DNA of 64,000 bases, from assembly GCF_040802235.1 (NCBI RefSeq), contig NC_133158.1:36212001-36276000 (forward strand), given 5' to 3'. Shown here piece by piece: positions 10,904 to 60,147 of the stretch. A model generated the notes under the pieces. The model did no database searches and had not been told where the DNA came from. It was given only the letters and a program-made list of their open reading frames with translations. A program made the translations under genes and the position numbers. The stretch comes from Manis javanica (taxonomy: Eukaryota > Chordata > Mammalia > Pholidota > Manidae). How positions within the stretch are numbered: position 1 is the first letter of the stretch; each line of letters starts with the position of its first letter.

Positions 10904-10914
10904 AAAAGTGTCCC
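10904..10914 (+). repeat. Left target-site duplication of the tailed L1 (copy A)
   Basis: AAAAGTGTCCC here is repeated directly after the terminal poly(A) at 19303-19313. The top-strand context CTT|AAAA corresponds to a bottom-strand TTTT/AA nick, the preferred L1 endonuclease site. The duplication encloses both the L1 and its non-L1 tail, so both arrived in one event. Confidence 0.9.
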
Positions 10915-12222
10915 GGGGCGGAGCCAAGATGGCGGCATGAGTAGAGCAGTGGAAATCTCCTCCCAAAAACACATAGAATTATGAAAATATAACAAAGAAA
11001 AATCTTCCTAAAATAGAGACCACAGGACACAGGACAACATCCAGACCACATCCACACCTGCAAGAACCCAGCGCCTTGAGAAGGGGGTAAGATACAAGCC
11101 CCGGCCCAGCGGGACCCGAGCACCCCTCCCCCCGGCTCCCGGCGGGTGGAAAGAAACCGGGCGGTTTTTTTTTTTTTTTGGCGAGTGCTTTTTGGAAGCC
11201 TTAAAGGGACAGGGACACCGTTGCTAGGGAGGCAGGGTGGCGGGACCGGCACTTGAGGACGGAGGAAATCGCGTGTTTTTCGCCTTTTTTTTTCTCTTTT
11301 TGGCGAGTGCTTTTTGGAAGCCTTAAAGGGACAGGGACCCGGTGCTAGGGAGGCAGGGCGGCGGGACTGGTGAGCGGGTGCCTGGGACCGGCGCCTGAGG
11401 ACAAAGAATATCCCGCGTTTTTCCCTGCGGGACCGGTGGGCAGGTCCCTGAAACCGGCACCTGAGGACGGAGGAAATCGCGCGTTTTTCCCATTTTTTTT
11501 CTCTTTTTGGCGAGTGCTTTTTGGAAGCCTTAAAGGGACAGGGAACCTGGTGCTAGGGAGGCAGGGCGGCAGGACTGGTGAGCGGGTGCCTGGGACTGGC
11601 ACCTGAGGACAAAGAATATCGCACGTTTTTCCATGCGGGACCGGTGGGCAGGTGCTTTTTGGAAGCCTTGAAGGGACAGGGACCCTGGTGCTAGGGAGGC
11701 AGGGCAGCAGGACCAGTGAGCGGGTGCCTGGGACTGGCACCTGAGGACAAAAAAAAAAAAAAATCATGTGTTTTTTTCCTTTTTTTTTTTTTTTTCTGTT
11801 CCCTCTCTCATTGTTGCTGTTGTTGTTTTGGTTTGGAGAGTGCTTTTTGGAAGTCTTAAAGGGGCAGGACAGGTCACATAAACCAGAGGCAGGGAATCTG
11901 GGGATCCCTGGGAACTCTAACCCCCTGGGCAGCAGGGAGCACAGAGGCCCCTTACGGAGATAAATAGCCTCCCAGCTGCTCCCTCTCCAACCGGGGCTCC
12001 ACCATTTTGGAGGAGCGGCCCCAGCCAGGCCACGCCCACAGCAACAGCAGAGATAAACCCCATAGCAACCGGGCAGGAAGCAGAAGCCCTGTCTGCACAC
12101 AGCTTCCCAGCACAAGCCACTAGAGGTCGCTATTCTCCCAGGTGAGGAAGGCCACAAACCAACAAGAAGGGAAGCTCTTCCAGCGGTCACTTGTACCAGC
12201 TCTGCACACTATCTCTATCACC
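10915..12222 (+). promoter_or_regulatory. L1 5' UTR with tandem repeat units (putative promoter)
   Basis: The L1 5' UTR normally holds an internal RNA polymerase II promoter. This one is GC-rich and repetitive: five occurrences of a 'gagtgctttttggaag' unit begin near 11180, 11302, 11509, 11648 and 11834. Between them a second block, 'gctagggaggcagggc' followed by 'gcctgggac', recurs near 11342, 11551 and 11691, with a related block near 11222. Interspersed T-tracts separate the units. Spacing varies between roughly 120 and 210 bp, so these are irregular tandem duplications. Promoter activity is inferred from position and family; I see no specific factor site I can vouch for. Confidence 0.75.
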
Positions 12223-13100
12223 ATGAAAAGACAAAACTACAGGCAGACAAAGATCACAGAGACAACACCTGAGAAGGAGACAGACCTAACCAGTCCTCCT
12301 GAAAAAGAATTCAAAATAAAAATCATGAACATGCTGACAGAGATGCAGAGAAAAATGCAAGAGCAATGGGATGAGATGCAGAGAAAAATGCAAGAGCAGT
12401 GGGATGAAGTCCGGAGGGAGATCACAGATGTCAGGAAGGAGATCACAGAAGTGAAACAATCCCTGGAAGGATTTATAAGCAGAATGGATAAGATGCAAGA
12501 GGCCATTGAAGGAATAGAAGCCAGAGAACAGGAACATATAGAAGCTGACATAGAGAGAGATAAAAGGATCTCCAGGAATGAAACAACACTAAGAGAACTA
12601 TGTGACCAAGCCAAAAGGAATAATATTCGTATTATAGGGATACCAGAAGAAGAAGAAAGAGGAAAAGGGATAGAAAGTCTCTTTGAAGAAATAATTGCTG
12701 AAAACTTCCCCAAACTGGGGGAGGAAATAATCGAACAGACCATGGAATTACACAGAACCCCCAACAGAAAGGATCCAAGGAGAACAACACCAAGACACAT
12801 AGTAATTAAAACGGCAAGGATCAAGGACAAGGAAAGAGTTTTAAAGGCACCTAGAGAGAAAAAGGAAAACCCATCAGGCTAACATCAGACTTCTCGACAG
12901 AAATCCTACAGGCCAGAAGAGAATGGCATGATATACTTAATGCAATGAAACAGAAGGGCCTTGAACCAAGGATACTGTATCCAGCACGACTATCATTTAA
13001 ATATGATGGCAGGATTAAACAATTCCCAGACAAGCAAAAGCTGAGGGAATTTGCTTCCCACAAACCACCTCTACAGGGCATCCTACAGGGACTGCTCTAG
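12223..13100 (+). pseudogene. L1 ORF1 (RNA-binding chaperone protein), frameshifted
   Basis: The start MKRQNYRQTK at 12223 fits the L1 ORF1 position just after the 5' UTR. The open frame runs to a stop at 12880-12882. Order of parts: basic N-terminus; coiled coil rich in M, Q, E, K with two identical 11-residue units (QRKMQEQWDE type, 12340-12405) and two ITDV/ITEV-type heptads; then the RRM-like core (NNIRIIGIPEEEE). Near 12865 the frame breaks, and C-terminal-domain sequence (ARREWHD-type and PDKQKLREF-type stretches) continues in another frame to a stop at 13098-13100. The protein normally trimerises and coats L1 RNA; without its C-terminal domain this copy would not. Confidence 0.85.
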
Positions 13101-13295
13101 ATGGGAGCACTCCTAAAAAGAGCACAGAACAAAACACACAACATATGAAGAATGGAGGAGGAGGAATAAGAAGGGAGAGAAGAAAAGAATCTCCAGACAG
13201 TGTATATAACAGCTTAATAAGCGAGCTAAGTTAGGCAGTAAGATACTAAAGAAGCTAACCTTGAACCTTTGGTAACCACGAATATAAAGCCTGCA

Positions 13296-16200
13296 ATGGC
13301 AATAAGTACATATCTCTCAATAGTCACCCTAAATGTAAATGGACTTAATGCACCAATCAAAAGACACAGAGTAATAGAATGGATAAAAAAGCAAGACCCA
13401 TCTATATGCTGCTTACAAGAAACTCACCTTAAACCCAAAGATAAGCATAGACTAAAAGTCAAGGGATGGAAAAACATATTTCAGGCAAACAACAGTGAGA
13501 AGAAAGCAGGGGTTGCAGTACTAATATCAGACAAAATAGACTTCAAAACAAAGAAAGTAACAAGAGATAAAGAAGGACACTACATAACGATAAAGGGCTC
13601 AGTCCAACAAGAGGATATAACCATTCTAAATATATCTGCACCCAATACAGGAGCACCAGCATATGTGAAGCAAATACTAACAGAACTAAAGAGGGAAATA
13701 GACTGCAATGCATTCATTTTAGGAGACTTCAACACACCACTCACACCGAAGGACAGATCCACCAGGCAGAAAATAAGTAAGTACACAGAGGCACTGAACA
13801 ACACCCTAGAACAGATGGACCTAATAGACATCTATAGAACTCTACATCCAAAAGGAACAGGATATACATTCTTCTCAAGTGCACATGGAACACTCTCCAG
13901 AATAGACCACATACCAGCTCACAAAAAGAGCCTCAGTAAACTCCAAAATATTGAAATTCTACCAACCAATTTTTCAGACCACAAAGGTATAAAAGTAGAA
14001 ATAAATTCTACAAAGAAAACAAAAAGGCTCACAAACACATGGAGGCTTAACAACATGCTACTAAATAATCAATGGATCAATGAACAAATCAAAATAGAGA
14101 TCAAGGAATATATAGAAACAAATGACAACAACAACACTAAGCCCCAACTTCTGTGGGACGCAGCAAAAGCAGTCTTAAGAGGAAAGTATATAGCAATCCA
14201 GGCACACTTGAAGAAGGAAGAACAATCCCAAATGAATAGTCTAACATCACAATTATCAAAACTGGAAAAAGAAGAACAAATGAGGCCTAAAGTCAGCAGA
14301 AGGAGGGACATAATAAAGATCAGAGAAGAAATAAACAAAATTGAGAAGAAAAAAACAATAGCAAAAATCAACGAAACCAACAGCTGGTTCTTTGAGAAAA
14401 TAAACAAAATAGATAAGCCTCTAGCCCAACTTATTAAGAGAAAAAGAGAATCAACACAAATCAACAGAATCAGAAATGAGAATGGAAAAATCACGACAGA
14501 CTCCACAGAAATACAAAGAATTATTAAAGACTACTATGAAAATCTATATGCCAACAAGCTGGAAAACCTAGAAGAAATGGACAACTTCCTAGAAAAATAC
14601 AACCTCCCAAGACTGACCAAGGAAGAAATGCAAAAGTTAAACAAACCAATTACAAGCAAAGAAATTGAAACGGTAATCAAAAAACTACCCAAGAACAAAA
14701 TCCCGGGGCCGGACGGATTTACCTCGGAATTTTATCAGACACACAGAGAAGACATAATACCCATTCTCCTTAAAGTGTTCCAAAAAATAGAAGAAGAGGG
14801 AATACTCCCAAACTCATTCTATGAAGCCAACATCACCCTAATACCAAAACCAGGCAAAGACCCCACCAAAAAAGAAAATTACAGACCAATATCCCTGATG
14901 AATGTAGATGCAAAAATACTCAATAAAATATTAGCAAACAGAATTCAACAGTATATCAAAAGGATCATACACCATGACCAAGTGGGATTCATCCCAGGGA
15001 TGCAAGGATGGTACAACATTTGAAAATCCATCGACATCATCCACCACATCAACAAAAAGAAAGACAAAAACCACATGATCATCTCCATAGATGCTGAAAA
15101 AGCATTTGACAAAATTCAACATCCATTCATGATAAAAACACTCAGCAAAATGGGAATAGAGGGCAAGTACCTCAACATAATAAAGGCCATATATGATAAA
15201 CCCACAGCCAGCATTATACTGAACAGCGAGAAGCTGAAAGCTTTTCCTCTGAGATCGGGAACCAGACAGGGATGCCCACTCTCCCCACTGTTATTTAACA
15301 TAGTAATGGAGGTCCTAGCCACGGCAATCAGACAAAACAAAGAAATACAAGGAATCCAGATTGGTAAAGAAGAAGTTAAACTGTCACTATTTGCAGATGA
15401 TATGATACTGTACATAAAAAACCCTAAAGACTCCACTCCAAAACTACTAGAACTGATATCGAAATACAGCAAAGTTGCAGGATACAAAATTAACACACAG
15501 AAATCTGTAGCTTTCCTATACACTAACAATGAATCAATAGAAAGAGAAATCAGGAAAACAATTCCATTCACCATTGCATCAAAAAGAATAAAATACCTAG
15601 GAATAAACCTAACCAAAGAAGTGAAAGACTTATACTCTGAAAACTACAAGTCTCTCTTAAGAGAAATTAAAGGGAACACTAATAAATGGAAACTCATCCC
15701 ATGCTCATGGCTAGGAAGAATTAATATCGTCAAAATGGCCATCCTGCCCAAAGCAATATACAGATTTCATGCAATCCCTCTCAAATTACCAGCAACATCC
15801 TTCAATGAATTGGAACAAATAATTCAAAAATTCATATGGAAACATCAAAGACCCCGAATAGCCAAAGCAATCCTGAAAAAGAAGAATAAAGTAGGGGGGA
15901 CCTCACTCCCCAACTTCAAGCTCTACTACAAAGCCATAGTAATCAAGACAATTTGGTACTGGCACAAGAACAGAGCCACAGACCAGTGGAACAGATTAGA
16001 GACTCCAGACATTAACCGAAACATATATGGTCAATTAATATTTGGTAAAGGAGCCATGGACATACAATGGCAAAATGACAGTCTCTTCAACAGATGGTGC
16101 TGGCAAAACTGGACAGCTACATGTAGGAGAATGAAACTGGACCATTGTCTAACCCCATATACAAAGGTAAACTCAAAATGGATCAAAGACCTAAATGTAA

Positions 16201-17112
16201 GTCATGAAACCATTAAACTCTTGGAAAAAAACGTAGGCAAAAACCTCTTAGACATAAACATGAGTGACCTCTTCTTGAACATATTTCCCCGGGCAAGGAA
16301 AACAACAGCAAAAATGAGCAAGTGGGACTACATTAAGCTGAAAAGCTTCTGTACAGCGAAAGACACCATCAATAGAACAAAAAGGAACCCTACAGTATGG
16401 GAGAATATATTTGAAAATGACACATCCGATAAAGGCTTGACGTCCAGAATATATAAAGAGCTCACACGCCTCAACAAAAGAAAAAACAAATAACCCAATT
16501 AAAAAATGGGCAGAGGAACTGAACAGACAGTTCTCTAAAAAAGAAATACAGATGGCCAAGAGACACATGAAAAGATGCTCCACATCGCTAATTATCAGAG
16601 AAATGCAAATTAAAACTACAATGAGGTATCACCTCACACCAGTAAGGATAGCTGCCATCCAAAAGACAAACAACAACAAATGTTGGTGAGGCTGTGGAGA
16701 AAGGGGAACCCTCCTACACTGCTGGTGGGAATGTAAATTAGTTCAACCATTGTGGAAAGCAGTATGGAGATTCATCAAAATGCTCAAAACAGACCTACCA
16801 TTTGACCCAGGAATTCCACTCCTAGGAATTTACCACTCCTAGGAATTTCTCAAGTTTGAGAAAGACACATGCACCCCTATGTTTATCGCAGCACTATTTA
16901 CAATAGCCAAGAATTGGAAGCAACCTAAATGTCCATCAGTATATGAATGGATAAAGAAGATGTGGTACAAATACACAATGGAATACTACTCAGCCATAAG
17001 AAGTGGAAAAATCCAACCATTTGCAGCAACATGGATGGAGCTGGAGAGTATTATGCTCAGTGAAATAAGCCAAGCAGAGAAAGAGAAATACCAAATGATT
17101 TCACTCATCTGA
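13296..17112 (+). pseudogene. L1 ORF2 (endonuclease/reverse transcriptase), broken
   Basis: The likely ATG is at 13296 ([20 protein letters not shown]), the usual position of the endonuclease N-terminus. The endonuclease part shows LQETHL and the C-terminal SDHKG motif. The reverse transcriptase begins around PGPDGF (about 14710). A TGA at 15021-15023 interrupts the frame; the same frame then continues past FADD (about 15390) to a stop at 16491-16493. A one-base length change in an A-rich run near 16480 shifts the remaining frame; a second TGA near 16687 and a short local duplication near 16820-16850 follow. The final piece ends at 17110-17112. The family supplies nicking and reverse transcription for insertion; this copy is inactive. 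Both TGA codons fit CpG decay from CGA. Confidence 0.88.
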
Positions 17113-17471
17113 GGAGTATAGGAACAAAGGAAAAACTGAAGGAACAAAACAGCAGCGAATTACAGAACCCAAAAATGGACTAACAGGTACCAAAGGGAAA
17201 GGAACTGGGGAGGATGGGTGGGCAGGGAGGGATAAGGGGGGGGGTAAGAAGAAGGGGGGTATTAAGATTAGCATGCATGGGGGGGAGGGAGAAAGGGGAG
17301 GGTGGGCTGCACAACACAGAGAGAACAAGTAGTGACTCTACAACATTTTGCTAAGCTGATGGACAGTAACCGTAATGTGGTTGTTAGTGGGGACCTGATA
17401 TAGGGGAGAGCATAGTATACATAGTATTCTTCATGTAAGTGTAGATTAAAAATTAAAAAAAAAAAAAAAAA
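17113..17471 (+). terminator. L1 3' UTR, G-rich tract, ATTAAA signal and first A-tract
   Basis: The 3' UTR has a strongly G-rich polypurine block at about 17195-17310 with several runs of four or more Gs, typical of L1 3' UTRs and capable in principle of forming quadruplexes. ATTAAA at 17445-17450 precedes the A-tract (17455-17471). ATTAAA is a weaker poly(A) signal than AATAAA, consistent with read-through into downstream DNA at the source locus. Confidence 0.75.
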
Positions 17472-17647
17472 GAAAGTAAGAAAGAAAAGGGGGATTACTC
17501 CTTGATAGGATAAAAGTATTGGTAAATCAAAGATTAACGCATGCTTTAAATATCCTTAATGTTGATCACTTAAAGGGTGTCAGATGATCAGCTATGGAGG
17601 TACTCTTTTCTGATAATATTCCTTTCTCTTAATAAAAAAAAAAAAAA
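17472..17647 (+). other. Intermediate transduced segment ending in AATAAA and a second A-tract
   Basis: About 160 bp of non-L1 sequence, beginning with an A/G-rich run and containing 'gttgatcacttaaagggtgt', separates the two A-tracts. It ends with AATAAA at 17631-17636 running straight into As. The same segment, in the same place, is in copy B (58267-58446). I read it as an earlier 3' transduction ending at a cryptic poly(A) site; an A-rich genomic run at the source locus is the alternative. Confidence 0.55.
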
Positions 17648-17885
17648 GCAGTTACTGTGTGCTGACCTCCAATGAGTTCTGCACAGTGGTATAGAGGGCA
17701 TGTCAAAGTGTGGGCAAAGGGGCTGTTTATTTCTATGCAGAAGATCAAGGCCTAGCTTGGATACCCAGAAAATGAACTAAGATACGATATGAGGAGGAGC
17801 TTCCGGCATCAGCACTCTCTGGAGGACTTGTGCCGGGGGATGATCATCAAAAAGCCTCCACAGGGATCCGGGCGATGCTGCGGTC

Positions 17886-18311
17886 GTGGCTGCGTCCACC
17901 CCACCGTCTCCTGGACTTGCCATAGGAATGAGGAGGGAGATGTCTAGGCTGGCATGTGCATACAGTGAGACAAAGAATTTGACCGGATCTGTACTGTTGG
18001 AACTCAACCAGGAGTTGGGAGGGGTGCAAGGTGTAGCACTCCAAAATCTTATGACTATAGACTATCTACGGTTAAAAGAACATATGGGATGTGAACAGAT
18101 CCCAGAAATGGGCTGCTTTAATTTGTCTGATTTCTCTCAGACTGTTCAAGTACAGTTGGACAATATCCATCATATCATAGACAAATTTTCACAAATGCCT
18201 AGGGTGCCTAAATGGTTTTCTTGGCTTCACTGGAAATGGATGGTAATTATAGATTTGCTTTGTTTATGTCACCGTATTCCTATTGTTAATATGTGTGTGC
18301 AAATTAGTTAG
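17886..18311 (+). pseudogene. Endogenous retrovirus env transmembrane-subunit fragment (copy A)
   Basis: This 141-codon open stretch resembles part of a gammaretrovirus-like Env transmembrane subunit. A heptad-like helix (LLELNQELGGVQ) leads into a segment in the position of the immunosuppressive-domain helix (LQNLMTIDYLRLKE). A disulphide-loop-like CEQIPEMGC follows, then FNLSD, an amphipathic stretch, a Trp-rich membrane-proximal segment (PKWFSWLHWKW) and a short hydrophobic run (VIIDLLCLC). The family usually has a third cysteine directly after the loop; here it is F. There is no surface subunit, signal peptide or fusion peptide. It is a remnant carried as 3' tail and unlikely to be translated from the L1 RNA. 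Confidence 0.7.
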
Positions 18312-18960
18312 TAGTTTAAAACCTATACATACTTAAGGTACTCTACAAGATATGTCAAAGAAATAATCCTCCCATGTTTCCTTCCATATGCTACATCTGT
18401 AGCTTTTCTTCTTTCTTCGTAATTACAACCCTTAAATAGAATTCGTGCCTCATATCGAATTTACCGAGTATCATAATTCCTCCAGGTGGTAAAGATACCT
18501 CGAGACAAGTGCTGGGCATAGAAACCACAGGGCATTAATCTGCAAAGAAGTAAAAAGCTAAACATTTCAAACAATATGGCTTCTCTCTCACTTACCAACT
18601 TTACATTTCCCTGTATGGCCCCGGAAGATGACTGGTTAGCCAGAGACGGGTAAGATTCCTCAAGGGAGGAACAACCTAAGACAGGCACAGTCGCAGGGGG
18701 GCCATCAGGTGAGAATTTGGGGATCAACAGAGGTGAGGCTCAGAACCTCACCCCCCCTGCTTTGAGAGAAATCTTCTGCATCTGTGGATGTTTTGCTGCC
18801 CTTGTCTAGCCTGGATTAATACTTAGTCCATAGGCACACACCTGATCATCTGATCATCTACATTTGCCCTCTTACAGCACTAAACTATGTTTTCTACCTT
18901 TATCTTGCATCTACCTACCACTTCAGCATTTTATTAAAAATAAAAATAATAATAATAATA
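18312..18960 (+). other. Non-coding part of the retroviral tail
   Basis: The region between the env fragment and the purine tract has no recognisable coding sequence on the plus strand. It ends in a short AAT repeat (about 18948-18960). The same region occupies the same place in copy B. It probably derives from the retroviral env 3' end and untranslated region; I cannot assign it to a named family. Confidence 0.5.
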
Positions 18961-18970
18961 AAGGGAGAAA
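18961..18970 (+). promoter_or_regulatory. Candidate polypurine tract
   Basis: AAGGGAGAAA directly precedes the TG that opens the LTR-like sequence. In retroviruses this purine run primes plus-strand DNA synthesis at the U3 edge. In copy B the matching tract is shorter (AGGAGAAA at 59767-59774). Confidence 0.6.
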
Positions 18971-19293
18971 TGTGGGATCAACATATAAATCAAGTACAAA
19001 AATCAAACAAATATTCATATTTGACCTGATTGTTTATAGGTCATAATGCGTGATCAAAACCGAAAGTTTCTGTGATGAATGCCCTTGTACTGTTCACCAT
19101 GTAAGAATTTATTCACTATGTAAGAATCCGTTCACCATGTAAGAACTTGTTGGTTATGCTTCAGAAGATTGGAGACTGACGAGAATTAGACTTGAGATGG
19201 ATTAATGATTGTACATTGAGCATTGACCTCCCTATACTGAATTTTATTGTTGTTAACAACCATTTGATCAATAAATATGAGAGATGCCCTCTC
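18971..19293 (+). repeat. Truncated 3' LTR (U3-R) with AATAAA
   Basis: It begins TGTGGGATCAAC and contains three short repeats of a 'caccatgtaagaa'-like unit (about 19096-19146). AATAAA lies at 19270-19275, with cleavage after CCCTCTC at 19293. No U5 follows, exactly as in a polyadenylated retroviral RNA. No matching 5' LTR is present in the element, so it was acquired as RNA 3' sequence. Confidence 0.7.
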
Positions 19294-19302
19294 AAAAAAA
19301 AA

Positions 19303-19313
19303 AAAAGTGTCCC
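19303..19313 (+). repeat. Right target-site duplication of copy A
   Basis: AAAAGTGTCCC, after the poly(A) tail, repeats 10904-10914. Sequence of the interrupted minus-strand L1 resumes at once (ATGTGCATTTGAGAAGAATG). Confidence 0.9.
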
Positions 19314-31572: not shown

Positions 31573-31700
31573 TGTTTCTTTTGGCAGCTGGCTGTGAGAG
31601 AGCACTCTGTGTTTTGTCTGGAAGGGAAGAGGGGCTTGTGTTGGAAGGCCTGGTGTGTTCGTGGTCTGTGAGGGACTCTGCTCCCGCTCTCCCTGCCCCT

Positions 31701-31820
<120 letters not shown>

Positions 31821-32564
31821 TTACTCAGGGCACGGGGATGGGGGGCATGCCTCTGCTCAGCTCTGGCCGTGAAGGGAGGGCTCTGGGAGAAGGTGCTCAG
31901 TCCTCAAAGGCTGAGCAAGAGGATAGGTTTTGTGATGACTCCAGGATGAGGTTGAGAAAGAAACACAGCAGAAAGGGCAGCCTTTGACCCCAGGCAGGCA
32001 GGATAGAGGCTGACTCACGCTCTCCGTCAGATGGCACTCTGGTGGCTTGGGGACTACAGTTAGCTCACAGATGCCTTCTGTATGGTCCACAGAGTCACCA
32101 TCTCTTAGACTTTAACAGGGCCTGGATTTATAGCAACTCATAATTAGCATTTCCACAAGGCAGCAGCAGTGGGCTAGGGCCCAGCACCAGTGTCCTCTCA
32201 GCCCCAAAACATTCCTCCAGGTCCTTATCTGCCACTTTTTTCTGGACTTACGTTATGGGTAGCCTTTTTTCCTTTCAAAGGCTTAGGAGAGTTTTGCCTA
32301 CAAATGCTGCATGCTCAGAAACCAACTGTGGACGAATTTTACCACCATCTGTAGTGCAAGATCACAGGAGATGGCCCGTGGTCATTTAGTAGCCTTTTGC
32401 TGAGTTCATGTTTCTCCTGAGGAGTGGCTTCCTCCTTCCTGGGAGGATAACAACATCCCTTAAACATTGAGCACCTGTGTGCCACAGCGGTCTAGGATTT
32501 GGAGAGAAAGCAGACAATGTTTCCATTCACTAAAAGCTCTCTAGGAAACCTCTAGGAATACATA

Positions 32565-32720
32565 TTTTAAAATAGAAAAGCTTTATTGAGGTATATCACA
32601 GAGTTGACTATTTTGTGGTTTTTAGTATACTCCCAAAGTTGGGCAACTGTCCCCACTAATTCCAGAATACTTTCTTCAACCTGAGAAGAAACCCCTGAAC
32701 CTGTGAGCGGTCACTCCCCA
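32565..32720 (-). repeat. Old L1 3' end fragment, antisense
   Basis: 'agctttattgaggtatatca' followed by 'gtggtttttagtatactccc', 'aagttgggcaactgtcccca' and 'agaaacccctgaacc' is the reverse complement of an ancient L1M-type 3' terminus. It lies in the last RAB7A intron (31797-34405). Confidence 0.65.
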
Positions 32721-34019
32721 TGGCCCCGACCCCTCAATCGAGACGGTCCAGGCAGGGAACACACAGCTCGCCAGAAGAGAGTGGGGAGACCCAACACAGG
32801 TCCCAATACACATGAACATTAATTACAACAAAGGTAATGTTTCAAAGTGGGAAAAATGGTTTACTGAACAATTAATTAGCTACTAGTATTTGAAACAAGT
32901 GGCTATCCCTCTGAAAGGAAAAGGTGAGTCCCTATTTCCTGCCATAAGCTAAAGTAAAGTAACTTCCATCTGAATTGGACATGTAATCTAGACACAGGAA
33001 ACCTAGAAATTTAAAATGACAAACTTGACTAAGAAGTTACTCTTTTTCTATGGCCGAGGAATATATATAAAAGGACAGCAGGGTTGACAAATTCCCCTGC
33101 AACACAGATGAAGTTAGTTTCAATGCACCCAAGCTGGTGAGAGCTGGTAGGGGCCCAGCAAGCGCCATGTCCACAGCAGGGAAAAACCCTGAGGCTGGCG
33201 CTGTGTGCGCAGGGCCTGCCACTGCCATGGGGGGGCCGGCCGGCACCAGCCCTGATGACCTGAGCCCTGACAGGCTCGCTCTAGAAAGGAAAGCCTATGC
33301 TAAGGAAATGGGACAGTTATTCAGAGGGAAAAGCCCAACAGTGCCCAGGCAGCAGGGAATGGGGAAAACAACCCCCAACACCACACCTCTCCAGGCTCGC
33401 GTGCACTTCCATTAGGAAAACCAACACAAGGCCATTCACCCAGGGTGAGGGAAGTGGGGAACGGAGAGGCAACGGGGCCTCAGGCTGTGGCCTGGTTAGG
33501 TCCTTCCCACTACCGAAGTTTCTCCTGGACTTTGGGTGGACCGATTCCTTTTTGGGTAGGACTGTCCCCTGTCATCATGGGACATTCAGCACAGGCCCCC
33601 AACCTGAGTACCTCCCTGCCCACAGGTCTGGAAGCCCTGTCCTGCTCAAACCACCGCCTTCTAGAAAGCCAGTTTCCCGGAGCGAGCAGAACCCACCCTG
33701 CCCCCATGTGCCCCCTTGAATGCTCTCTACACACCCCAACACGTGCACCTCACCTCTGACCAGCCCCCACACAACCCCTGGAGCAACTCCCACAGACAGC
33801 TGATGGTGCCTCATGAACTGCCTTAACTCCCCACCGCAGCAGAGCTGCTCAATCAGCAAGGGCCTTCAACACACACATGCCAACAAGAAGTGACATTTGG
33901 GGGGAACAGTTGGGTAAACAAGACAAAGGCAAAATGCAGGGGAACTTTATTCAAGGCATAAAATTCCTAGGACTCTGGTTAACTTCTCTGGTGATCAAAT
34001 AAAACCATTTTGAGATGAC

Positions 34020-34165
34020 AATACTAAGTCTGTCCTGTTTAATCTTGACAACCAGCCTACAAAGCAGGCATTATCCTTTTACAGATGAGGAGCTGGAAGC
34101 CCAGACATAATAAAAACTAGATCTAATGATGGAGCCGGGATTCAAAGTCAAGTTTATCCCTCCCT
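34020..34165 (+). repeat. MIR SINE fragment
   Basis: 'cattatccttttacagatga', 'ggagctggaagcccagac' and 'atggagccgggattcaaa' match the MIR core and its 3' flank. It is an ancient tRNA-derived SINE shared by all mammals and long inactive. It is intronic in RAB7A. Confidence 0.75.
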
Positions 34166-34369
34166 CACCCAGGAGGAGCAATCTGGCCAGGGATGCCTCG
34201 GTAAGACCAAAGGGAATAAACACGCCCAGGCGAACAAGGGAGGCCCCCACCAAGGTCTTCGCTGCTCCTGCCCTGTTCAGGCTATTCACAAACAAGTGGA
34301 ATTTCTGGAAGCTTTAGCAGAACATGTCATTATGTTCCCAGATAAACACACAGGCTGGGTCACTGGTCA

Positions 34370-34798
<429 letters not shown>

Positions 34799-36040
34799 TT
34801 AAGCTTGTAAAGGGCATGTGCAGCCAGCCCAGGGAGCAATGAGCCCCGGGACCCAGAGATGCCAGCACAGCAAGCACCTGGCGGCTTGGTCTTGAGGTTT
34901 GCAGTCCCCTCCCATTACCACTGATGGTCATCACCTGTGCCATGCATGCACCCAAGTGCCACAGAATTCTGTGCTCTCACCCAGCACCCTCTCCTCTCGT
35001 ACTCCAATTCCTCCCTGGCCCCTAACCCTCAGGCAGGAGAGAAGGACTATGTCACTTAGGAAAGGGAGAGAGATCAGTGGTTAGAAATAAATCTAGCTAT
35101 AATTAAGACAGTCTATGTTCCCAAGAGAAATACTAGTTGAAAATCAACCAGAGCAATTTTACTCAAAGCCCAAAGCAGTCTTCGGCACACGTGGGGCCCA
35201 GGCAGGCCCCCGAGGCACTGGGAGAACACTGGAGAAGTCCCTCCTCTGAAGTGCTGAAGGGGAACCGCGCCTTAGTGCAGAAGCCACAGCCCAAAGCCAC
35301 AGCTGTGGGCAGCATCGTGGGCGTTTCAACCAGGTCTCCTGGGCCCCGGACCTCAAAGGCAGCTGACCTAAACGCAGTTCACACTCCCACACAAACCTTC
35401 CAGAGCATTCCAGGTGTAGAACAGAATCCTCCAAATTCACAAGGCACTAAGGAGCAGGAGTCTCTTGCAGGAGAGGACGGTTACAATGGGCCAACCAGAA
35501 AGCTGCCACTTACCCAGCTCTCCTGGGCACCAGGGCTTTCAGGTCCTGTCTGTTATGGTAAGGGGAGATTTGGACTCCAGGAAGCATTCCCAGCTAAGGA
35601 TGCATGAGCTAAGCTTTCAATGTGAGTCTGCTTTTAAATCCAGGCCACCACTCAGCCTCAGTCATATCACTTCACCAGGGCCAAGATGCACGGCCAGCAT
35701 GGGCAATTCCATGAAGTAGCCTGGCCCCTCTGCTGGGACAACTTCAAAGGCAATACCGCTGCAACTCCCACTGTGCCCACTTCTCCACAGGGAGGCCGCA
35801 CTGGTGCGCCTTCACCAGGTTAGGGAGCAGGGCCCTGTCCCAAGGCCTGGGCAGGTACCAGCTAACTGTCCCTATCCCACCACGGGGACAACACACAGAT
35901 ACACTGGGAATGGGTCCTTGAGGCACGTGGCTTTTTACCAATCAAAGCTTAAAACAGCACTTGTCAGCCACACTTAGTTGCTGCTTTTAAAAGGAACCCT
36001 TTCTGAATCAATAGCCATCACCCTAACGAGGGCAGGCTCA

Positions 36041-36364
<324 letters not shown>

Positions 36365-56865: not shown

Positions 56866-56881
56866 AAAAAGTAGAGACTAC
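56866..56881 (+). repeat. Left target-site duplication of the tailed L1 (copy B)
   Basis: AAAAAGTAGAGACTAC, 16 bp, is repeated at 60132-60147 after the poly(A). The CCTT|AAAAA context corresponds to a TTTT/AA-type nick on the other strand. Confidence 0.92.
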
Positions 56882-57910
56882 CTCTTCAACAGATGGTGCT
56901 GGCAAAACTGGACAGCTACATGTAGGAGAATGAAACTGGACCATTGTCTAACCCCATATACAAAGGTAAACTCAAAATGGATCAAAGACCTGAATGTAAG
57001 TCACGAAACCATTAAACTCTTGGAAAAAAACATAGGCAAAAACCTCTTAGACATAAACATGAGTGATCTCTTCTTGAACATATCTCCCCGGGCAAGGAAA
57101 ACAACAGCAAAAATGAGCAAGTGGGACTACATTAAGCTGAAAAGCTTCTGTACAGCGAAAGACACCATCAATAGAACAAAAAGGAACCCTACAGTATGGG
57201 AGAATATATTTGAAAATGACAGATCTGATAAAGGCTTGACGTCCAGAATATATAAAGAGCTCACACGCCTCAACAAACAAAAAACAAATAACCCAATTAA
57301 AAAATGGGCAGAGGAACTGAACAGACAGTTCTCCAAAAAAGAAATACAGATGGCCAAGAGACACATGAAAAGATGCTCCACATCGCTAATTATCAGAGAA
57401 ATGCAAATTAAAACTACAATGAGGTATCACCTCACACCAGTAAGGATAGCTGCCATCCAAAAGACAAACAACAACAAATGTTGGCGAGGCTGTGGAGAAA
57501 GGGGAACCCTCCTACACTGCTGGTGGGAATGTAAATTAGTTCAACCATTGTGGAAAGCAGTATGGAGGTGCATCAAAATGCTCAAAACAGACCTACCATT
57601 TGACCCAGGAATTCCACTCCTAGGAATTTACCCTAAGAACGCAGCAATCAAGTTTGAGAAAGACAGATGCACTCCTATGTTTATCGCAGCACTATTTACA
57701 ATAGCCAAGAATTGGAAGCAACCTAAATGTCCATCTGTAGATGAATGGATAAAGAAGATGTGGTACATATACACAATGGAATACTACTCAGCCATAAGAA
57801 GTGGAAAAATCCAACCATTTGCAGCAACATGGATGGAGCTGGAGAGTATTATGCTCAGTGAAATAAGCCAAGCGGAGAAAGAGAAATACCAAATGATTTC
57901 ACTCATCTGA
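56882..57910 (+). pseudogene. L1 ORF2 C-terminal fragment, frame open to its natural stop
   Basis: The frame is open from the truncation point to the stop at 57908-57910, about 342 codons (326 from the first ATG at 56930). It includes the ORF2 C-terminal cysteine region ([20 protein letters not shown]) and ends EKYQMISLI. It lacks endonuclease and reverse transcriptase, so it cannot act alone. Comparison with copy A places copy A's frameshift near 16480 and its second TGA near 16687, where copy B has an intact arginine codon. Confidence 0.9.
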
Positions 57911-58266
57911 GGAGTATAGGAACAAAGGAAAAACTGAAGGAACAAAACAGCAGCAGAATTACAGAACCCAAAAATGGACTAACAGGTACCAAAGGGAAAG
58001 GAACTGGGGAGGATGGGTGGGCAGGGAGGGATAAGGGGGGGGAAGAAGAAGGGGGGTATTAAGATTAGCATGCATGGGGGGGAGGGAGAAAGGGGAGGGT
58101 GGGCTGCACAACACAGAGAGGACAAGTAGTGACTCTACAACATTCTGCTAAGCTGAAGGACAGTAACCGTAATGTGGTTGTTAGGGGGGACCTGATATAG
58201 GGGAGAGCATAGTAAACATAGTATTCTTCAGGTAAGTGTAGATTAAAAATTTAAAAAAAAAAAAAA
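57911..58266 (+). terminator. L1 3' UTR, G-rich tract and first A-tract (copy B)
   Basis: Same layout as in copy A: G-rich block at about 58000-58105, an ATTAAA context, then an A-tract ending near 58266 and continuing into GAAAGAAAGAAAG. Confidence 0.75.
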
Positions 58267-58446
58267 GAAAGAAAGAAAGAAAAGGGGGATTACTCCTTAA
58301 CAGGATAAAACTATTGGTAAATCAAAGATCAACGCATGCTTTAAATATCCTTAATGTTGATCACTTAAAGGGTGTCAGATGATCAGCTATGGAGGTACTC
58401 TTTTCTGATAATATTCCTTTCTCTTAATTAAAAAAAAAAAAAAAAA
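58267..58446 (+). other. Intermediate segment and second A-tract (copy B)
   Basis: Same ~160 bp as 17472-17647. Here the pre-tract sequence reads AATTAAA instead of AATAAA, and the A-tract is slightly longer. Confidence 0.55.
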
Positions 58447-58684
58447 GCAGTTACTGTGTGCTGACCTCCAATGAGTTCTGCACAGTGGTATAGAGGGCAT
58501 GTCAAAGTGTGGGCAAAGGGTCTGTTTGTTTCTACGCAGAAGATCAAGGCCTAGCTTGGATACCCAGAAAATGAACTAAGATACGATATGAGGAGGAGCT
58601 TCCGGCATCAGCACTCTCTGGAGGACTCGTGCCGGGGGATGATCATCAAAAAGCCTCCACAGGGATCCGGACGATGCTGCGGTT

Positions 58685-59137
58685 GTGGCTGCATCCAGCC
58701 CACCATCTCCTGGACTTGCCATGAGAAGGAGGAGGGAGATGTCTAGGCTGGCATGTGCATACAGTGAGACAACGAATTTGACTGGATCTGTACTGTTGGA
58801 ACTCAACCAGGAGTTGGGAGGGGTGCAAGTTGTAGCACCCCAAAATCTCATGACTATAGACTATCTATGGTTAAAAGAACATATGGGATGTGAACAGATC
58901 CCAGAAATGGGCTGCTTTAATTTGTCTGATTTCTCTCAGACTGTTCAAGTACAGTCGGACAATATCCATCATATCATAGATAAATTTTCACAAATGCCTA
59001 GGGTACCTAAATGGTTTTCTTGGCTTCACTGGAGATGGCTGGTAATTATAGATTTGCTTTGTTTATGTCACCGTATTCCTATTATGTCAATATGTGTGTG
59101 CAAATTAGTTAGTAGTTTAAAACCTATACATACTTAA
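58685..59137 (+). pseudogene. Endogenous retrovirus env transmembrane-subunit fragment (copy B)
   Basis: 150 open codons covering the same Env piece as in copy A: the helix, the CEQIPEMGC loop with F in place of the following cysteine, the Trp-rich membrane-proximal segment and the short hydrophobic run. A two-base difference near 59083 changes the last residues relative to copy A and extends the frame. The loss of the third loop cysteine is shared by both copies, so it predates their separation. No signal peptide, surface subunit or fusion peptide is present. Confidence 0.7.
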
Positions 59138-59774
59138 GGTACTATACAAGAAGATATGTCAAAGAAATAATCAATCCTCCCAAGTTTCCTTCATATGCTA
59201 CATCTATAGCTTTTCTTCTTCCTTCCTAATTACAAACTTTAAATAGAATTCGTGCCTCATATCGAATTTACCGAGTATCATAATTCCTCCAGGTGGTAAA
59301 GATACCTCGAGACAAGTGCTGGGCATAGAAGCCACAGGGCATAAATCTGCAAAGAAGTAAAAAGCTAACCTTTGCAAACAATATGGCTTCTCTCTCACTT
59401 ACCAACTTTACATTTCCCTGTATGGCCCCGGAAGATGACTGGTTAGCCAGAGACGGGTAAGATTCCTCAAGGGAGGAACAACCTAAGACAGGCACAGTCG
59501 CAGGGGGGCCATCAGGTGAGAATTTGGGGATCAACAGAGGTGAGGCTCAGAACCTCACCCCCCCTGCTTTGAGAGAAATCTTCTGCATCCGTGGATGTTT
59601 TGCTGCCCTTGTCTAGCCTGGATTAATACTTAGTCCATAGGCACACACCTGATCATCTGATCATCTACATTTGCCTTCTTACAGCACTAAACTATGTTTT
59701 CTACCTTTATCTTGCATCTACCTACCACTTCAGCATTTTATTAAAAATAAAAATAATAATAATAATAGGAGAAA

Positions 59775-60096
59775 TGTGGGATCAACATATAAATCAAGTA
59801 CAAAAATCAAATGAATATTCATATTTGACCTGATGGTTTATAGGTCATATTGCATGATCAAAACCGAAAGTTTCTGTGATGACTGCCCTTGTACTGTTCA
59901 CCATGTAAGAATTTATTCACTCTGTAAGAATTCGTTCACCATGTAAGAACTTGTTCGTTATGCTTCAGAAGATTGGAGACTGACGAGAATTAGGCTTGAG
60001 ATGGATTAATGATTGTACATTGAGCATTGACCCCCCTATACTGAATTTTATTGTTGTTAACAACCATTTGATCAATAAATATGAGAGATGCCCTCT

Positions 60097-60097
<1 letters not shown>
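59775..60097 (+). repeat. Truncated 3' LTR (U3-R), copy B
   Basis: It begins TGTGGGATCAAC after a shortened purine tract. AATAAA lies at 60074-60079. Same three 'caccatgtaagaa'-type units as copy A. Confidence 0.7.

Positions 60098-60136
<39 letters not shown>
60098..60136 (+). repeat. Terminal poly(A) tail of copy B
   Basis: A run of 39 As, uninterrupted as printed, directly after the LTR cleavage site and overlapping the start of the right target duplication. Confidence 0.95.
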
Positions 60137-60139
<3 letters not shown>

Positions 60140-60147
60140 GAGACTAC
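60132..60147 (+). repeat. Right target-site duplication of copy B
   Basis: Repeats 56866-56881 exactly, and is followed by the unrelated flank TTCCTGTGTATAG. Confidence 0.92.

Follow-up and report, generated by a model that had tools for sequence, protein, structure and literature searches.

An L1 family of Manis javanica with a mostly retroviral 3′ end

A 64,000-nt stretch of the Manis javanica genome (assembly GCF_040802235.1, contig NC_133158.1, here C3:36212001-36276000, forward strand; hereafter the window) holds two insertions of a long interspersed element (LINE), L1, that continue past the L1 3′ end into a 1.8-kb tail of mostly retroviral sequence. The composite has propagated as a unit and is abundant in the genome, its L1 and tail have been transcribed as a common RNA, and part of the tail is constrained. 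We propose, at a probability of roughly 0.78, that an L1 family captured this tail, probably once and by read-through, that the tail was copied with L1 into thousands of places, and that it has been kept for a strong poly(A) site and a constitutive transport element (CTE). The retroviral parts are a remnant of the envelope (env) transmembrane (TM) subunit, a predicted CTE-like hairpin, a purine tract and the U3-R portion of a long terminal repeat (LTR).

Results

Copy 1 is a single insertion that runs from L1 at 10915 to about 17454 and on through an A-tract and the tail (17472-19293) to 13 A residues, all between duplications of AAAAGTGTCCC. The preliminary description, made from the letters of the window, had placed a full L1, an intermediate segment, an env TM fragment, a purine tract, an LTR cut at its poly(A) site and a poly(A) end within one target duplication, and this arrangement was confirmed. 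The insertion went into an older antisense L1, which it split at one point into pieces that end at L1 coordinates 2978 and 2985. L1 hallmarks are present in copy 1, namely an RNA-binding-domain-like domain in open reading frame (ORF) 1 and endonuclease and reverse transcriptase domains in ORF2, and the insertion marks are of L1 type (target duplication, TT/AAAA-type site, poly(A) end and 5′ truncation). Copy 1 itself reads as dead, as both frames appear broken; ORF2 has an in-frame stop at 15021-15023 and further frame breaks downstream.

Copy 2 (56866-60147), which had likewise been described as sharing the tail and having a target duplication of its own, was borne out on both points: AAAAAGTAGAGACTAC lies at 56866-56881 and 60132-60147, the L1 that begins at 56882 is 97.0% identical to copy 1 over 1,392 nt, and the stretch 17430-19293 of copy 1 matches copy 2 at 96.0% over 1,877 nt, with about 39 A residues after the copy 2 tail. 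A segmental duplication is ruled out because the flanks of the two copies differ. Both copies show the same order of L1 3′ end, A-tract, segment 1, second A-tract, TM-bearing segment, purine tract, LTR to CTCTC and poly(A). The earlier account of the tail thus holds for its parts and is refined by two internal A-tracts around a 161-nt segment and by the assignment of the TM, which is related to the TM ectodomain of the avian alpharetrovirus avian sarcoma and leukosis virus (ASLV; 4jpr_A, E 2.9e-8; 5h9c_A, E 3.4e-8). No Pfam family matched the TM remnant above its cut-off. The LTR end, CTCTC, lies 18 nt past AATAAA.

The tail occurs in thousands of places. A similarity search of the genome (2,559,957,944 bases in 63 contigs) gave 4,849 candidates, of which the best 40 were scored; these are 97-98% alike to the tail, the window copy itself aside. 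Exact matches genome-wide numbered 7,896 for the 18-mer AAAGGGGGATTACTCCTT at the tail start and 17,604 for the LTR end followed by A5, against 182 for the LTR end followed by a non-A base (reversed control 0 in each case). Sixteen of these 182 were examined, and in 15 an A-rich run begins at most about 6 nt away; L033 has none. An LTR of this form is therefore nearly always a poly(A) end and not part of a provirus. A solo LTR or provirus was rejected as the identity of the element since there is no U5, and the paired LTRs with U3-R-U5 that characterize an endogenous retrovirus (ERV) were not found. A shorter element beginning at tail position 445 was also rejected, because matches that start there carry L1 as well.

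L1 lies directly upstream in 28 of the 30 best-matching loci, the window copy included, and the remaining two (L019 and L023) are 5′-truncated within the tail and have target duplications. As these loci had been chosen by similarity, position-ordered lists were also used. One young form of the L1 3′ end, recognized by a 23-mer with 2,251 occurrences in the genome, was followed on contig C1 (241,980,339 bases) up to 25.68 Mb, and all 24 of its 3′ ends in that range carry the tail; the tail starts at most 70 nt away in 23, and the 24th (L057) has a tail with a small insertion. An exact LTR end follows within 2.4 kb for 37 of 67 listed tail starts, and for 35 of these the distance is 1,774-1,816 nt; mutation can account for the 30 without an exact LTR-end match in that range. 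Where the 5′ end fell inside the sequence (11 insertions), an exact duplication of at least 8 nt was found by script in seven, the shortest of which (L016) is A-rich and weak. The preliminary description had inferred a propagating lineage from two copies and had suggested a genome search for the tail with L1 immediately upstream and duplications at the outer edges. The 28/30 and 7/11 counts support propagation, whereas the scale had been understated, as the family is large and old; the tail is not confined to a single-copy context, nor are the two window loci one segmental duplication.

LTR ends spaced about 370-380 nt apart on one strand were seen at C1:2241790, 2242160 and 2242532, at 6426336 and 6426714, and in L011; by this spacing, the LTR part appears to be doubled or tripled in tandem in some copies.

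Across 31 sequences, a motif search located the first internal seam in 26 and the second in 25, the rest being truncated or altered in the motif. The A-run starts directly after CTCTC in 29 of the 31, and the ends of L017 and L029 are off by a base or two. One further copy, L064, stops early, at about 19145. Young copies are 97-98% and old copies about 83-90% identical in the tail, with the same seams and with L1 directly upstream. The old copies L052, L053, L055 and L056 align across both seams; L054 joins the L1 A-tract directly to the second A-tract and lacks segment 1, and L051 has a larger gap around segment 1. The seams shared by old and young subfamilies suggest that the capture is old, and the plain reading is one capture that would predate the split of the subfamilies.

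Three copies (L064, L068 and L071) lack the stretch from CTAACAG/GTACC in the L1 3′ untranslated region (UTR) to either GCAG/T (17651/17652) or ATGCAG/A (17740/17741). Because this is exactly a GT-AG intron from the L1 3′ UTR into the tail, L1 and tail were transcribed as one RNA. With at most one mismatch, junction 17186^17652 has 46 matches genome-wide and junction 17186^17741 has 194 (reversed control 0 for both); three of these 240 places were seen in context and the others are pattern matches only. The first 30 places listed for 17186^17741 comprise 16 with young-type and 14 with old-type tail sequence, which indicates that splicing recurred. The junction copies most plausibly arose by insertion of spliced RNA, since a single deletion would not yield two acceptors in two subfamilies.

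Constraint was assessed with 33 young copies and two sets of old loci, set A (6 loci picked by exact LTR end) and set B (13 loci chosen for their similarity to L036); copies that retain too little of the tail were left out of the counts, as were L001 (a repeat of the window copy) and L058 (a repeat of L036). Fixed young-old changes per 100 sites (set A/set B) are 9.4/12.6 in the TM and 5.0/6.5 in the LTR, against 0/0.5 in the block at 18510-18715. In the block, each copy has 2.5 (A) or 1.2 (B) private changes per 100 sites, versus 0.5-2.5 and 1.3-1.9 in other regions. On a tree of the tail (non-CpG sites, branch of the old/young split excluded), internal and terminal changes stand at 12/108 in the block versus 207/695 in reference regions (P 4e-4), and within the old clade at 6/64 versus 133/362 (P 3e-4). 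Between comparable sets, and with some of the sites lacking, the presumed L1 ORF2 coding stretch 16200-17000 has 0-3.4 fixed changes per 100, which puts the block at a similar level of constraint. Some feature of this RNA thus appears to be required by L1 masters.

Within the block, between the TM and the purine tract, lies CCAGAGACGGGTAAGATTCC..GGAACAACCTAAGACAGGC. The two-core pattern AGACGGGTAA..ACCTAAGACAGG has two matches in the window, one per copy, where 0 are expected. Primers for half of the CTE of the type D retrovirus SRV-1 contain AACCTAAGACAGG and, as reverse complement, AAGACGGGTAA, and both tail cores occur in them (PMC4330393; PMC numbers here and below stand for the parts of each text that were covered). 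The CTE consists of two symmetrical units, and each Tap(NXF1)-binding unit has a conserved AAGACA in its internal loop (PMC4330393). The tail is predicted to fold into GCC/GGC, an internal loop AGAGAC/AAGACA and GGGU/ACCU, so that the sequence has the type D arrangement of an AAGACA internal loop with AGACGGGTAA on the opposite strand; at least 90% of the hairpin pairs are kept in 32 of 44 copies. L072, an ERV in this genome, carries two CTE-like units right before AATAAAGGGGGAGA and an apparent LTR, and its unit is 74.5% identical to that of the tail over 51 nt (E 3e-4) in a permissive comparison. Given this CTE-like motif, the tail hairpin is predicted to bind NXF1 and to export unspliced RNA.

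LTR starts that lack the purine tract were found at four loci (L047-L050), all of which end in poly(A); L048-L050 begin at the LTR start, two of the three with visible duplications, and L047 has a short duplication before the LTR. In a search with an ERV integrase C-terminal domain, the best 150 of 2,335 candidates were scored and two pieces were fetched (L072 and L073), neither of which gave a blastn match to the composite at E 0.01. Many of the 150 share one 144-aa open frame, perhaps that of a short, repeated class II ERV; L072, with its doubled CTE-like unit, is the example that was read. No relatives were found among IMG/VR contigs.

The two 208-nt repeats in the copy 1 5′ UTR (11245-11653) are 94% alike and monomer-like. 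Another L1 (62541-64000, minus strand) is 85% alike to copy 1; the match stops at a plain L1 poly(A) end with no tail, and this L1 belongs to an older, tail-less lineage. Exons at 31700-36300 on the minus strand, judged by their protein letters, are presumably those of RAB7A, and copy 1 lies beyond the 3′ end of that gene. Features of the two copies are collected in Table 1.

Table 1. Features of the two composite insertions, in window coordinates
Feature	Position	Strand	Remarks
Copy 1 5′ target-site duplication AAAAGTGTCCC	10904-10914	+	TCTT just before; L1-endonuclease-like TT/AAAA site
Copy 1 L1 5′ UTR	10915-12213	+	holds the 208-nt unit twice
Copy 1 L1 ORF1 remnant	12214-13100	+	PF02994 1.5e-17; frame broken near 12860
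Copy 1 L1 ORF2 remnant	13242-17112	+	endonuclease PF03372 2.4e-21, reverse transcriptase PF00078 4.9e-33; 3′ limit set by eye from frame list
Copy 1 L1 3′ UTR	17113-17454	+	G-rich; splice donor CTAACAG/GTACC at 17186/17187
First internal A-tract, old L1 poly(A) end	17455-17471 (about)	+	GAAA repeats next in most copies printed
Segment 1, non-L1, part of captured tail	17472-17632	+	161 nt between two A-tracts
Second A-tract and splice acceptor 1, TTCCTTTCTCTTAATA(n)GCAG/	17633-17651 (A-tract about 17633-17647)	+	exon from 17652
Segment upstream of TM	17652-17950	+	splice acceptor 2, TTTCTATGCAG/, at 17740/17741
Env TM homology (ASLV TM)	17961-18161	+	within open frame 17844-18311
Constrained block	18510-18715	+	0 (set A) or 1 (set B) lineage-fixed changes in 206 nt
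Predicted CTE-like hairpin	18614-18706	+	internal loop AGAGAC (18642-18647) / AAGACA (18678-18683)
Polypurine tract before LTR	18960-18970	+	by eye
LTR U3-R, no U5	18971-19293	+	AATAAA 19270-19275, cut at CTCTC; limits by eye
Copy 1 poly(A) and 3′ target-site duplication	19294-19313	+	13 A after 19293; AAAAGTGTCCC at 19303-19313
Copy 2	56866-60147	+	target-site duplication, 5′-truncated L1 from 56882, tail to 60097, poly(A), target-site duplication
CTE-like core of copy 2	59451-59492	+	motif match

Discussion

A capture mechanism is proposed where an L1 inserted upstream of a provirus or a provirus 3′ remnant, and its transcripts, not stopped by the weak poly(A) site of L1, were cleaved at that of the LTR. 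Reverse transcription of such read-through RNA would have given a composite that became a master. The tail may owe its retention to a strong poly(A) site and, in addition, to a retroviral CTE that would recruit NXF1/NXT1, which could allow unspliced full-length L1 RNA to leave the nucleus despite the spliceable seam, by the same logic as in a type D retrovirus.

Several results weigh against this proposal. The preliminary description had suggested looking for a source locus where the tail continues into U5 and flank without poly(A); no source provirus or LTR with U5 turned up among the near-exact LTR matches (16 of the 182 places with a non-A end and 4 of 4 without the purine tract), although a diverged source is possible, which leaves read-through capture as a proposed origin. 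The tail has one recognizable half-CTE and lacks the two-fold symmetric pair of units. Compared as whole strands without gaps, the SRV-1 primers score 17/27 and 14/21, which the window reaches elsewhere as well (17 and 14) and shuffled tails can exceed (up to 18 and 16), so the case for a CTE rests on the exact cores together with their order, folding and location. Of 57 loci, 29 have the two cores in exact form and 28 have a changed letter or a missing part. Rfam gives no transport element for the tail (0 rows, then three rows under their families' cut-offs), by which a known Rfam RNA was rejected. The fold has a z-score of only -2.05, with 4 of 200 shuffles folding equally well; L025, L036, L038 and L044 are predicted to fold otherwise; and paired sites of the hairpin are no more conserved than unpaired ones. 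As for constraint, the young clade alone is not significant (6/44 vs 74/333, P 0.19), and the LTR (34/213) and 18716-18919 (26/130) are also depleted of internal changes, less strongly than the block.

Other accounts of the tail deserve comparison with capture and retention. The tail could have hitchhiked passively, as a 3′ transduction that rode with an L1 master successful for other reasons (promoter, ORF2) and that contributes a poly(A) site only. L1 3′ transductions are ordinary, if usually private or few-copy, and much of the tail evolves fast: besides the TM, the stretch 17734-17950 has 16.0-19.4 fixed changes per 100. Hitchhiking nevertheless seems somewhat unlikely to us, as it does not sit well with a block that is nearly unchanged between subfamilies and depleted of internal changes while its private mutations are about as frequent as elsewhere. 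Template switching by the L1 reverse transcriptase at A-rich sequence, with L1 RNA and a polyadenylated ERV RNA as the two templates, would account for the A-tracts at both internal seams and for the direct joining of the two in L054. Segment 1, however, is not L1 and has no ERV assignment, and the order L1, A-tract, segment 1, A-tract, ERV fits read-through of a genomic stretch; on this argument we regard a template switch as improbable. That the tail represents a separate ERV family (a deleted provirus or an SVA-like element) with L1s adjacent by chance is barely credible and already contradicted. Its TM, purine tract and LTR and the tail-only insertions (L019, L023, L048-L050) would be expected of such a family, but poly(A) takes the place of U5, target duplications and cut sites of L1 type enclose L1 plus tail, and the tail-only copies read as 5′ truncations.

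The tail might instead be kept for a protein, a third ORF derived from env TM and under selection. Among young copies 24 of 33 have an open TM frame, among old ones 12 of 19, and this stretch has a synonymous excess in the TM frame and not in the other two (dN/dS, the ratio of nonsynonymous to synonymous change, about 0.4; P 0.004-0.012), which persists without CpG sites. This excess also counts against our proposal, because a reading based on RNA alone does not explain it. The TM part overall, however, evolves at about the rate seen in the last part of the L1 3′ UTR, and its synonymous divergence exceeds the divergence of segment 1, so that later exchange with another ERV copy could be responsible. 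Moreover, a different frame upstream (from 17738, over 17738-17951) gives the same signal in the fastest-changing part of the tail, and we therefore claim no protein; selection for one appears doubtful. Equally unlikely, in our estimation, is the more elaborate possibility of a LINE with a whole retroviral late RNA programme, in which the captured CTE would export unspliced L1 RNA and splicing at the seam would make a second mRNA for a selected env TM-derived protein, a third L1 gene.

The element proposed here, a captured and retained tail on L1, resembles several known systems. As in human L1 3′ transduction, flanking sequence up to another poly(A) site lies within one target duplication, here between the L1 A-tract and the terminal poly(A); it differs in that the transduced end has become the regular 3′ terminus of a family whose copies number in the thousands. 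Lindtner is said to have reported in 2002 an NXF1-binding element in the human L1 3′ UTR, which would likewise equip L1 RNA with a 3′ export element (predicted in our case), although there it is native L1 sequence. SINE-R derives from the env-LTR end of HERV-K, and SVA offers a close parallel, a 3′ module of env end plus LTR cut at its poly(A) site that is moved by L1 machinery. SVA is non-autonomous and combines Alu-like and variable-number tandem repeat parts with SINE-R, without coding capacity, whereas the carrier here is L1 itself, with remnants of ORF1 and ORF2. In PMC13174262, SVA is described as containing LTR sequence, and chimeras were sought on the 5′ side.

Mammalian L1 lineages recruit novel 5′ UTRs (PMC5872511, PMC3600994) and are thereby renewed by unrelated sequence, as here, where the 3′ end is affected and the module is retroviral. 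The tail shares with the SRV-1 half-CTE (PMC4330393) the AGACGGGTAA and AACCTAAGACAGG strands around the AAGACA internal loop, and with ERV L072 the position of a CTE-like unit between env and purine tract; it differs from a type D CTE in that one unit is recognized and L1 carries it. The SERV-K/MER11 transport element, which works as a CTE and was tested in cells, is similarly a region derived from env end and LTR, located before the purine tract and captured by another element (PMC11379458). There the captor is a retrovirus and the covered text reports no NXF1-loop motif, while the function of our tail is predicted only. A survey of pangolin ERVs reports an alpha-like lineage and also ERV-Gamma.b9-Mpen, with an L1 between env and 3′ LTR that is described as inserted in the provirus (PMC12584738); it too places a pangolin L1 beside a 3′ env-LTR, but it is a gammaretrovirus and a single element, and the parts of the survey covered mention no L1 family of the present kind. 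Chimeric mouse L1 (PMC6500023) was set aside as a different matter. The full-text literature searched, which covers few subscription papers and lies apart from Dfam and Repbase, yielded no account of L1s that as a family end in retroviral sequence.

Lasting renewal of the 3′ end by a retroviral RNA module is a route of L1 evolution other than the known renewal of the 5′ end, and the family offers a testable case of export and 3′-end formation as limits on L1. It also implies that env and LTR pieces scattered in this genome need not be proviruses, and that repeat annotation may count such tails as ERVs. If the CTE reading is true, NXF1-type transport elements move between classes of element.

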